The position numbers were made by a program, and so were the translations under genes. This document shows, piece by piece, positions 25,557 through 29,384 of a stretch of 48,291 nt of DNA. Numbering within the stretch: position 1 is the first letter of the stretch; every line of letters starts with the position of its first letter. The notes beneath the pieces were generated by a model. The model made no database searches. It had not been told where the DNA came from and saw nothing but the letters and a program-made list of their open reading frames with translations. This DNA comes from Candidatus Saccharimonadota bacterium (GTDB taxonomy: Bacteria > Patescibacteriota > Saccharimonadia > Saccharimonadales > Saccharimonadaceae), in contig JAFRJG010000017.1 in NCBI GenBank assembly GCA_017432365.1, forward strand, positions 1 to 48,291, given 5' to 3'.

Positions 25557-26789
25557 TTAGCCCCAGAACTTTAAGGAGTAAATTGGGTTTTTCTTGGCGG
25601 CTTTTATAGCGGGGAAGAGACCGAAGATGAGACCGGTCAAGAGGGCGGTCGAGAAAGTGATGGCTAGGATTTGCCAGGAGACGAACGGGTTAAACGGGGT
25701 AATTAAGCAGAGAAGGAAGGCGAGTCCGTAGCCGAGGATGAGACCGAGGAAACCGCCGGAGAGGGAGAGGATTAAAGCTTCAAAGAGGAATTGGAGGAAG
25801 ATGTTGCCGGTTGAGGCGCCGACGGCTTTCCGGATACCGATTTCGTGAGTCCGCTCGGCGACTGAGACGAGCATGATGTTCATGATACCGATACCGCCGA
25901 CGATGAGCGAGATACCGGCGACAACGGAGAGGATACTCGAGATGACGGAGAAGAGAGTGCCGGCGGGATGAGTAATGTCGTCGCCAGAGAGAACGGAGAA
26001 GTTTGTGTCGCCGTTTTTAGAGGCGATAAGGGTTTCGCGAATGGTTTTGACGGTTTTTTCGAGGTCGTTAGTGTTTTCGGTACGGATGTTGATTTGTTGG
26101 ATTTGGAGGGAGTTGTCGATTTTATTAAGGGCGGAGGCGGAGACGAATAGGGAAGAGTCGAGGTCAAGATTGTTGAAGTTAATAGGGTCGTCAACTTCGG
26201 TTAGGACGCCGACGATAATGAAGCGTTCGCCGAGGAGAGTGAGGGTTTTCCCGACGGGTTCGCCGGTTCCATAGAGGTCGTTAGCGAGTTTGGCGCCGAT
26301 AACGGCGGTAGCGGTCGGAGCATCGTCCTTGAGGAAAGTGCCGGATTTAAGGGTTAAGTTTTGGATTTTAATAAAGTCGGGATTGGTTCCGACGACGGGG
26401 ACGGAGGGAAGGAAGGTGTCGTCATCGCCAGAGAGGGAATTGACGGAGACGGCGAGAGGGGCGACCGAGGCGATATTGTCGAGTTTTTCGATTGTGGCGA
26501 CGTCTTTTAAGGTTAAATTGGACTTTAAGTACATCGAGGAGGAGGTTAATTCGTCGACGACGCGGGAGACGGCGGTTTTAGTGGTCGAGGGACGAACAAC
26601 GACGAGGTCAGAGCCGATTTGAGCGACTTGAGAAGAGATGAGCGAGGAGATACTTCCCATGAGAGAGAGAATCAGGATAATGGAGGCGACGCCGATAGAG
26701 ATACCGAGGCAGGTGAGGAAGCTGCGCCCGCGATTACGCTTGATAGAGGTACGAGCAAGCTCGTAATGAGTTCGAAGAAGGAGAGCCAT
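25557..26789 (-). CDS. MacB-like ABC transporter permease
   Basis: Membrane protein of 410 aa. Topology of the MacB/FtsX type: one N-terminal helix (FLTCLGISIGVASIILILSL), a large extracellular MacB-type domain (residues ~45-270), and three C-terminal helices. VAERTHEIGIRKAVGAS after the extracellular domain is the family's coupling region. Works with the ATPase just upstream (1-bp TAATG overlap). MacB-like pairs in Gram-positive-type cells export peptides or lipoproteins or give resistance; substrate unknown. No membrane-fusion partner (MacA) lies beside it. Confidence 0.92.
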   Translation of the reverse strand: MALLLRTHYELARTSIKRNRGRSFLTCLGISIGVASIILILSLMGSISSLISSQVAQIGSDLVVVRPSTTKTAVSRVVDELTSSSMYLKSNLTLKDVATIEKLDNIASVAPLAVSVNSLSGDDDTFLPSVPVVGTNPDFIKIQNLTLKSGTFLKDDAPTATAVIGAKLANDLYGTGEPVGKTLTLLGERFIIVGVLTEVDDPINFNNLDLDSSLFVSASALNKIDNSLQIQQINIRTENTNDLEKTVKTIRETLIASKNGDTNFSVLSGDDITHPAGTLFSVISSILSVVAGISLIVGGIGIMNIMLVSVAERTHEIGIRKAVGASTGNIFLQFLFEALILSLSGGFLGLILGYGLAFLLCLITPFNPFVSWQILAITFSTALLTGLIFGLFPAIKAAKKNPIYSLKFWG

Positions 26790-27580
26790 TATTTTTTCGT
26801 CTTTTTCTTTCGGTTAGATTTTTTCTTATTTTTGGGGCGGCGGCGATTTTTCTTTTCGACGGGGACGGGGAGGTCGGAGTCAGCGACGGTTTTAATATCG
26901 GTGTCGATTGAGCCGTCGAGCATGTGAATGACGCGGGTCGCATAAGAGGTTAGGGAAGGGTTATGAGTAACCATGATGATAGTATTTCCTTCGGAGTGGA
27001 TTCGGGAAAGCTCGGACATGACGAGGGCGGAAGAATGAGAATCGAGATTTCCGGTCGGTTCGTCGGCGAGGATGATTTCGGGACGGGCGACGATGGCACG
27101 GGCGATAGCGGCGCGTTGTTGTTGACCGCCAGAGAGTTGGGAGGGGAAATAATATTCTTTTTCTTTTAAATTAAAGCGGTCGAGGATTTCCGAGGCGCGA
27201 ATCAGACGGCGGGTTTTATGGTAGCCGGAGTAGACAAGAGGGAGGGCGACGTTTTCGATAATGGGGAGGTCGGGGATTAGGTTAAAGTTTTGGAAGATGA
27301 AACCGATTTTTTTCGCGCGGAGACGAGCTTGGCGACGGGCGGAAATTCGGGAGACAGGTTCATCGTTGAGGCGATAAACGCCGGAAGTGGCGGAGTCGAG
27401 AAGACCAATCAAATTCAAAAGAGTCGTTTTTCCGCAACCGGAAGGGCCCATGATCATGATAAACTCGCCGCGTTTCACGGTTAAGTCGAAATCTTTTAAG
27501 GCGTAAGAAGCGGCGTCTCCGTAGCCGAAGCGCTTAGTTAAGTTTTCGAGTTTTATAATTGTTTCTGTTTCCTCGCTCAT
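26789..27580 (-). CDS. ABC transporter ATPase, MacB/LolD type
   Basis: ATPase of 263 aa. Walker A GPSGCGKTT, Q loop FQNFNL, signature LSGGQQQRAAIARAIV, Walker B ILADEPTGNLD, His switch VTHNP. The C-terminal ~30 residues are almost all Lys/Arg/Asn (KKNRRRPKNKKKS), an unusual extension that may bind lipid heads or nucleic acid. -10 TATAAT (27589-27594) is 8 nt before the ATG, so leaderless, with its own promoter despite lying 58 bp after the pilin-like gene. Confidence 0.95.
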   Translation of the reverse strand: MSEETETIIKLENLTKRFGYGDAASYALKDFDLTVKRGEFIMIMGPSGCGKTTLLNLIGLLDSATSGVYRLNDEPVSRISARRQARLRAKKIGFIFQNFNLIPDLPIIENVALPLVYSGYHKTRRLIRASEILDRFNLKEKEYYFPSQLSGGQQQRAAIARAIVARPEIILADEPTGNLDSHSSALVMSELSRIHSEGNTIIMVTHNPSLTSYATRVIHMLDGSIDTDIKTVADSDLPVPVEKKNRRRPKNKKKSNRKKKTKK

Positions 27581-27638: not shown

Positions 27639-28511
27639 TTATTTAGAGATAACATCGACGGTGCCGTTAGGAGAGAACTTGATAGTGCAAACGTCCCAGA
27701 TGCCGTTTTTGAAGCTGGCGTCGTTACCAGAGAATTCGAAGGAGCCGACGATACGGTTTTTGTTCGGGAAATGTCTACTAGTATTGAAACGGTCGCCCTG
27801 GAAGGTGTAACCGTCAAGGATGTAAATATATAGTTTTATGTCGGTATTACCGTCGTAAGATTGGCCTTTGAAATAGAGGGGATTGTTGACACTGACGTCT
27901 ATGGAGTTACTGGTTCCGAAGACGCTATTGAAGATATTATTTTGGAGATGGAAGTAGGAAAGTAGTGACGACATGTATGCCCAAGACAAGTCGGGACTAT
28001 AGGAGTTGGTTTCACAATGTGGCGAAGGCGGATTTTCGGAGATAGTTTCGGTATCTCCGTTTGTGATGATTTGAAAATTTTCGAAGAAGCAGTCGGCAAC
28101 GTCCGAGGAATTGTTGTATGAGGGGATGAAGTGGGCAAAATCTTGGGCGGATTGGATATTGTCTTGGTGATAAGCTTGTTGCGCGCGTTCGAGATTGAAA
28201 AGTTCAAGACATTCAGAACCGTTGACCCAATCACTAGAGAGATTATTGACGACGCTACCGTAGTTGAAGAATGTGGACGGACCAAAACAGCGGTGACGAT
28301 TGGTAAAATAGTCGGTCTGGGCGGAGTCTTTTACTTCGAAGTTCAAGTTAGGGTTACCGGAATAAACGAGGACAGAAGCCATCCAGAGACCGTCGAGAGG
28401 GTTGGAAGGATTCTTAGGATTTTGGACACAGACTTGGTTGGAACCCACGGAAGCGGGGTCACAGAGGTCGGGGTCGGAGCCGCCGACCGGTTCGGGTTCA
28501 TCCTCGTCGCC
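27639..28511 (-). pseudogene. C-terminal part of the phase-variable pilin-like gene, out of frame
   Basis: Downstream half of the interrupted gene: open from the end of the G tract to a stop at 27639 with no ATG start (only a GTG at 28448). It encodes an acidic linker (GDEDEPEPVGGSDPD), then ~270 residues with several Cys (VCVQN, HRCFG, SECLE, ADCFF, PHCETN, WDVCTI) and ending FSPNGTVDVISK. It has no signal of its own. It rejoins the upstream half if the tract loses one base (11) or gains two (14), giving 556 aa. Confidence 0.8.
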
Positions 28512-29310
28512 GGGGGGGGGGGGTATTAGAGGAGATAACAGTAGCGTCGGGGTTGTAAAGGCGGACGATGGTGGAGATGGTCGTGGAGCCGTTACCGCCG
28601 ATATTTTCCCAGCAAGTACGGATGTAAAAGTCGTAATAGCGGGGGGTACTACCGGTACCTTCTTGGACGGCGGTTATCCAGATACCTTGAGCGGAGTTTA
28701 AGCTGACGTCGGCTGTAACGTTGTTGGAGTCGGAGAGAGTCGTATCGGTCGTGGAATAAACAAGGCGAGGATAAGTCGGGGTCGCAAAGAGGCGGGAGCT
28801 AGAGGCTTTATGAGGGACAAGGACTCTTTCGAGGTTGGTGACGTTGTCGAGGTTAAGACTGCTAAGGTCGGTATTATTAAGATGGCGAGGGTTGATAACG
28901 AAACTAGATTGAGAAGACGCTCCGGAGGGGGGGAGGATGGCAAGATTGTTGGCATAGATTGTGCTACAAGATTGTCCGTTATAATTGGCGGAATTAAGGA
29001 AGGTGTCTTGGACCTGGTTGGGTTTAAACGCTTTGTCTTTGAGCTTACTCCAGAGTTTGTAATAAGGATTACTGGTGTCGCCGGCGTTCATGGAGTAGGC
29101 GTTATGAATAAAACGGAGGGCTTCAGCTTGAGTGTCGATTTCTTGGCGAGCCATGGCGGTTTCGAGGGTTCCCTGGGCGGTGGCAACGCCTTTGTTCATC
29201 ATGGCGATTGAGCTAACGGAAACCATACCGAAAATAGCGACGGCGAAGAGAACCTCGACGAGCGTGTCGCCACGAAGGGATTTTGGGATTCGAGAGTTGG
29301 GGAGTTTCAT
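28498..29310 (-). CDS. Type IV pilin-like protein, N-terminal part (truncated by G tract)
   Basis: As read, 270 aa ending in an artificial tail RRRG. The N-terminus is a type III (prepilin) signal: KSLRGDTLVEVLFAVAIFG, with G before the cleavage site, hydrophobic helix and Glu at +5; Asp at +1 is unusual. This helix would anchor and pack into a pilus or pseudopilus. The rest is a beta-rich head with Cys pair (SCSTIY, RTCWEN). -10 TATAAT (29319-29324) is 8 nt before the ATG. The TGA stop is reached only because the 12-base C run (minus strand) shifts the frame. Confidence 0.85.
   Translation of the reverse strand: MKLPNSRIPKSLRGDTLVEVLFAVAIFGMVSVSSIAMMNKGVATAQGTLETAMARQEIDTQAEALRFIHNAYSMNAGDTSNPYYKLWSKLKDKAFKPNQVQDTFLNSANYNGQSCSTIYANNLAILPPSGASSQSSFVINPRHLNNTDLSSLNLDNVTNLERVLVPHKASSSRLFATPTYPRLVYSTTDTTLSDSNNVTADVSLNSAQGIWITAVQEGTGSTPRYYDFYIRTCWENIGGNGSTTISTIVRLYNPDATVISSNTPPPRRRG
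28512..28523. repeat. Homopolymer of 12 G
   Basis: Twelve G on the plus strand (12 C in the coding strand) inside the pilin-like gene, between Asn-Thr and Gly-Asp codons. Such tracts slip at replication. 11 or 14 would restore the full reading frame. Confidence 0.95.
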
Positions 29311-29384
29311 TGTTGTTTATTATAACATAAGTGGGATGAGTTAGGTTTTTATTTTTTGTTTTTTATGATATATTGGGGAAAGAC

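Follow-up and report, generated by a model that had tools for sequence, protein, structure and literature searches.

A pilin gene divided by a 12-base cytosine run

The window, by which we mean the whole 48,291-nt stretch of DNA that was analyzed, is contig C9 of a 677-kb Saccharibacteria genome in 19 contigs. On its minus strand lies a gene whose two halves are in different reading frames and meet at a homopolymer of 12 cytosines. The features of the locus are as follows.

27639-29310, minus strand: the whole modular pilin gene (reading frames at several run lengths; codon log-odds frame change at the run)
29319-29324, minus strand: TATAAT hexamer 8 nt upstream of the ATG, likely the -10 box of the gene (our reading of the sequence)
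28498-29310, minus strand: N-terminal pilin module of 270 aa, open in the assembled sequence and closed by TGA (open reading frame, AlphaFold2 model, relatives in most congeners)
29089-29271, minus strand: prepilin cleavage site between G14 and D15 and N-terminal helix, residues 14-74 (sequence, relatives and model)
28512-28523, minus strand: run of 12 C in the coding strand (G12 on the plus strand), the proposed contingency tract (sequence, frame analysis, shuffling)
27639-28511, minus strand: C-terminal extension of 290 aa, which in the assembly is in a different frame from the start; an acidic linker, then an orphan domain, with 7 Cys (open frame)
26789-27580, minus strand: LolD-type ABC ATPase, 58 nt beyond the stop of the full-length reading, used as a synteny marker (Pfam ABC_tran)

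As assembled, the open reading frame runs on the minus strand from the ATG at 29310 to a TGA at 28498-28500 and encodes 270 aa, ending in SNTPPPRRRG. The initial annotation had proposed that the 12-base tract shifts the frame into this nearby TGA and that 11 or 14 bases would keep it open for about 556 aa. Both statements hold: the TGA follows 270 codons, and run lengths of 11, 14 and 8 set in silico gave products of 556, 557 and 555 aa. With 10 or 13 cytosines the product has 321 or 322 aa and a short unrelated tail, and with 12 (as assembled) or 15 it is the 270-aa pilin. As in homopolymer contingency loci, a long pure mononucleotide run lies where its length alters the encoded product (270, 321/322 or 556/557 aa).

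The run is the only G/C homopolymer of at least 8 bases in the window, where the second-longest G run has 7. Dinucleotide shuffling gave an expectation of 0.09 G12 runs per window, and 5 of 100 shuffles contained one, so that the length by itself is a borderline and weak argument. What lifts the run above chance is its position at a domain boundary, the intact and codon-biased frame beyond it, and the context of the genus.

To assess the coding character of both halves, we used a codon log-odds score trained on 22 genes of the window. Upstream of the run, frame 0 is favored (0.28 vs -0.26 and -0.87); downstream, frame 1 is favored (0.145 vs -0.87 and -0.16), and the frame switch coincides with the run. 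The distal 290 codons are free of stops, a state that none of 2000 shuffles of the distal part reproduced. The alternative frame is thus both intact and codon-biased, as expected at a contingency locus, and both halves look like real coding sequence. We note as a caution that the distal score of 0.145 is lower than that of every training gene (0.17-0.51).

The upstream half is a complete pilin module

A prepilin signal had been noted in the gene, and we could verify it: the protein begins with a class III leader, cut between G14 and D15 in the context G14-D15-T-L-V-E-V, with Gly before the cut, Glu (E19) at position +5 and a hydrophobic helix following. G14, D15 and E19 are invariant across sets of 30 and 41 relatives. 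An AlphaFold2 model of the N-terminal module, built from 41 sequences (pLDDT 85.9), has a 59-residue helix (residues 16-74) and an alpha/beta head; the final strand of this head stops at residue 252, upstream of the run. Of 60 genomes of the same genus that were searched, 57 contain relatives of residues 1-266, with 31-52% identity; the prepilin residues, Cys115, Cys233 and a C-terminal TIST-RLYNP strand are conserved among them.

Matches to curated families are all below cut-off. Pfam N_methyl scored 17.2 bits against a cut-off of 21.2, and the nearest families of the module are the minor pseudopilins and pilins GspI, GspJ, ComGE and PilV. A Foldseek search of the module against the PDB gave no significant match, and the best solved structure in VIA-align was a Thermus competence pilin, at a Z score of only 3.7. 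The genome encodes pilus machinery on contig C16 (PilM, PilB, PilT, PilC and a PilD-type A24 peptidase). In the sequence read at the TATAAT upstream of the gene, there is neither a consensus -35 box nor a G tract.

The 270-aa form is a complete pilin module, of a length typical of the stand-alone pilins of congeners. Taken as a whole, the gene would specify a minor type IV pilin of modular build, in a Saccharibacterium of the ruminant gut.

The downstream half is an orphan extension

The pilin module (residues 1 to about 255) joins the extension through a linker rich in proline and acidic residues (GDEDEPEP), and the proline codons are the pure C run. With 11 or 14 cytosines, the reading is that of a modular pilin, in which an extra domain comes after a complete pilin module. 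The initial annotation had described this domain as Cys-rich; it does contain cysteines, but 7 in 290 aa is not strikingly many.

The distal 290 residues matched nothing in Pfam, PHROG, NCBIfam or PDB sequences. Among 173 congeners there was no credible relative of the distal part and only four marginal matches, which we dismissed because they were short or lay in unrelated proteins or non-coding frames. Folded alone from its single sequence, the C-terminal half gave no usable model (pLDDT 34). The extension is likely a species-specific domain, and likely one that binds the host bacterium, a role proposed by analogy.

Short and long pilins among the relatives

Named relatives of the gene were recovered by an alignment-based scan of contigs; a single-protein scan gave none. 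They come from Saccharibacteria MAGs, mostly of sheep, goat, deer, buffalo and yak gut, and from Candidatus Nanosyncoccus alces. Most of the 80 named loci (63) encode a short pilin, and the remaining 17 a pilin with a longer, different and intact C-terminal extension. The short pilins mostly end where the run lies in the window gene. In a tree of 60 modules, short and long forms are interleaved, with 12 changes by parsimony and at least 7 forced by well-supported branches; extensions therefore come and go. Across the genus, pilin modules of the long form (L116-L182) carry many different C-terminal extensions of about 190-840 aa with several Cys, repeatedly gained and lost.

Two relatives (L123 and L131) share the gene order pilin-lolD-macB-tsaD with the window, at identities of 84-85% for lolD, 73-75% for macB and 67-68% for tsaD. 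Both have only a short pilin, which ends about 110-120 nt before lolD. Because these syntenic orthologues are short, the extension in the window is probably derived, an addition at this locus. Judged from these comparisons, the 12-C product probably resembles the ancestral short pilin, so that the run would join a pilin of ancestral type to a species-specific C-terminal domain.

No other congener has a C run at the end of the pilin module in its pilin, and a pattern search for a run beside the module end matched only the window gene and an unrelated promoter in one genome (G050). The run is thus not conserved in position among relatives, and as a switch it is unconserved. Contingency runs are often strain-specific; a conserved position is supportive and not strictly required. 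In the closest relative (L115), a candidate readthrough domain after the pilin stop was rejected since the open stretch, although in frame, is the neighboring phosphoglycerate mutase gene.

Poly-G runs in this genome and across the genus

G/C runs of at least 10 bases occur at two distinct sites in the genome: the C12 run, and the ends of contigs C19 (G16) and C1 (G17).

Contig C19, 47079-47146, and contig C1, 1-89 (L010 3081-3147 and L009 1-1284 of genome G000): second run, with the contig break in a promoter spacer

The second site reads TTGACA-N5-G16/17-TAACAT, with -35 and -10 hexamers flanking the run as in phase-variable promoters, and the start codon for a 402-aa protein follows 46 nt later. 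This protein is secreted and has weak LRR matches and a C-terminal membrane segment. Its gene is, on this reading of the sequence, likely a second phase-variable surface gene of the genome. Elsewhere in the same genome, on contig C10 at 20989 (L208 2491-2499), a G9 run is followed by TATTTT, with no clear open reading frame after it on the same strand.

We searched for MutS in this genome and 39 relatives and found it in none of the 40; the control search was positive in 11 of 14 genomes.

The motif TTGACA followed by G8 within 0-9 nt was found in 37 of 174 genomes of the genus, and the reversed control gave no matches. In an order-wide sample, the same pattern was present in 9 of 43 same-genus genomes vs 4 of 252 others (Fisher P about 6e-6). 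A -10-like hexamer (at most two mismatches) directly follows 36 of 68 unbiased, non-redundant runs of at least 9 bases, vs 4% of 198 runs of 5-7 G. The spacers between -35 and -10 at these runs measure 14 to 26 nt, mostly 15-21. An N-terminal hydrophobic segment is present in 33 of 55 genes downstream of runs, and some have a C-terminal xxTG and hydrophobic anchor. The downstream domains include DUF285, Fib_succ_major and LRR-like stretches, and a few of the proteins are not secreted, for instance a GNAT acetyltransferase. The runs in congeners are likely on/off switches before many surface-protein genes, to judge from this arrangement.

Contigs tend to end at such runs: 11 of 58 lie within 100 nt of a contig end, vs 0.7 expected. 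This excess is consistent with length heterogeneity, though contigs could equally be interrupted by paralogous copies or by runs that are hard to sequence.

Several further observations were made among the 174 congeners. Poly-G promoter spacers at their loci (L046-L114, L195-L254) have the general form TTGAC(A/T)-N4-9-G9-19-TATAAT-like before mostly secreted or anchored proteins, and the number of runs of at least 9 bases is 10-18 in some genomes and none in others. Two genomes, G141 (L242-L250) and G114 (L235-L241), contain paralogous promoter families, for instance ACTAAAATTCGTCT-Gn-TATAAAAGCTATTT, with many members at contig ends; these are likely families of switchable surface genes. In L254 (3545-3554, contig C39 of G028) and also in L133, TTGATT-N5-G10-TATAAT lies just downstream of a short pilin gene and drives a secreted protein truncated by the contig end.

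The runs of the genus are mostly in promoters, and the only plausible coding case besides the window gene is L210. There, a C10 run (2471-2480; G017, contig C10:7269) lies in a proline-rich and acidic linker of a protein without known identity; the in-frame reading is Arg/Gly-rich, and another frame gives an acidic, folded-looking tail. It is possibly a second coding switch. A C9 run at the end of a PhoH-like gene in G126 (L075) was judged not to be a switch.

Explanations of the run

The initial annotation had read the tract as an on/off switch by phase variation. Phase variation remains the best-supported reading, given the intact distal frame, the lack of MutS and the poly-G promoter spacers of the genus, but the supposed off state is not null, as it yields a complete pilin of 270 aa. 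The switch would therefore be one between a bare pilin and a pilin with an added domain. We consider it reasonably probable, from the sequence evidence, that the run is a slipped-strand contingency locus toggling these two forms.

A simpler account is an assembly or sequencing error. The true run would then be 11 (or 14) bases, the gene intact and its product always the long pilin, with the run a neutral proline linker. Metagenome assemblies often miscount homopolymers of about 12 bases, and the other long modular pilins of the genus are intact, both of which favor this account. We nevertheless regard it as unlikely, because even at 11 C or more the run should slip in a cell that lacks MutS, proline can be encoded without a pure run, and such runs are kept at regulatory positions of surface genes in the genus. 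Somewhat more doubtful still is a decaying extension, in which a fixed frameshift has silenced the C-terminal domain, a pseudogene is forming and the species uses the short pilin only. The assembled length is the off length, the syntenic orthologues have the short form only, the distal codon bias is somewhat weak and the distal part lacks a homologue, all of which would fit. Against this, no stop or second frameshift interrupts the 290 codons, the frame ends near the next gene, and for a recent frameshift that falls exactly in 12 identical bases a reversible run is the better account. Broken relatives, named beforehand as a sign of a dead gene, were not what we found: the relatives are intact, and either end naturally before the position of the run or bear unrelated C-terminal domains without a run.

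Both forms could also arise from one allele with a fixed 12 C, if the ribosome (+1 on CCC codons) or RNA polymerase slips and produces a set ratio of short to long protein. Poly-C is a plausible slippery site, and such slippage would account for the intact distal frame; the other runs of the genus, mostly in promoters, where only a change in DNA length makes sense, argue against it and leave it improbable. We give the least credence, and very little, to two separate genes, with the distal part translated alone from a GTG at 28448. A 269-aa open reading frame does begin there, but its product would have no signal peptide, and the GTG lies inside the distal part, whereas the coding signal reaches upstream to the run.

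In the contingency locus that we favor, cytosines would be gained and lost by replication slippage in the population, since the run is long and the lineage lacks MutS. Cells with 11 or 14 C would make the 556/557-aa pilin, and the pilus would probably display its extra domain; those with 12 or 15 C would make a 270-aa pilin of the relatives' short type, and those with 10 or 13 C a pilin of 321/322 aa. An add-on domain that may bind the host bacterium would thus be switched while the pilin itself stays. In the 12-C state, about 860 nt would be untranslated before lolD, which could lower the expression of the ABC genes.

Comparison with known systems and significance

The arrangement resembles that of the minor pilins PilX1 and PilX2 of Nanosynbacter lyticus TM7x, which bear extra C-terminal domains (PMC12206443); deletion of pilX2 lowers host binding, which is halved (PMC12206443). 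The likeness is one of architecture, a saccharibacterial minor pilin whose pilin module is extended by a further domain at the C-terminus. No homopolymer switch has been described for PilX1 and PilX2, and their extra domains are jelly-roll-like and beta-propeller, whereas that of the window gene is an orphan. In the bimodular type IV pilin PilB of Streptococcus sanguinis, a grafted domain mediates adhesion (PMC8179133). There too a small pilin module carries a functional module, joined to it through a short loop, but the grafted part is a vWA domain, permanently attached and without a switch. An attachment role for the switch in the window is suggested by analogy with TM7x PilX2 and S. sanguinis PilB.

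Switching by homopolymers is known from other bacteria. In pathogenic Neisseria, a G/C homopolymer of 9-20 within the coding frame of pilC switches a pilus-associated adhesion protein (PMC5953494, citing Jonsson et al. 1991). PilC is not a pilin and the frameshift abolishes the protein, whereas the truncated form of the window gene is a complete pilin. Helicobacter canadensis shows C-terminal phase variation, with the run late in the gene (PMC2823697); there, as would be the case here, the run alters the C-terminus rather than abolishing the protein. In H. canadensis mostly a few residues are changed, whereas here a whole domain of 290 aa would be added or removed. Our search of the open literature, with subscription papers and preprints outside its scope, returned no account of phase variation by homopolymers in Saccharibacteria; the nearest one concerns a Gracilibacterium, in which a surface gene has a hypervariable 9-mer repeat (PMC6851277).

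Poly-G/C-switched pilus genes (Neisseria pilC) and C-terminal switching (H. canadensis) are thus already known. What is new in the proposed switch is that it would add an entire domain to a pilin already complete by itself, in an epibiont of the candidate phyla. Of wider interest is the set of poly-G promoters found across the genus. We hold it about evenly balanced whether the genus has a phasome without mismatch repair, in which poly-G spacer promoters of many surface genes, together with, in this species, a coding C run that toggles a pilin-grafted domain, would let the epibiont stochastically sample states of host recognition.

To our knowledge, the field has yet to explain how host-dependent Saccharibacteria locate compatible host bacteria and stay with them, and only a few factors, type IV pili among them, have been shown to play a part in this pairing. 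Neisseria, Campylobacter and Helicobacter diversify their surfaces by hypermutation. If the reading proposed here is true, these epibionts would do the same, and this would partly explain why assemblies of such genomes are interrupted at poly-G runs.
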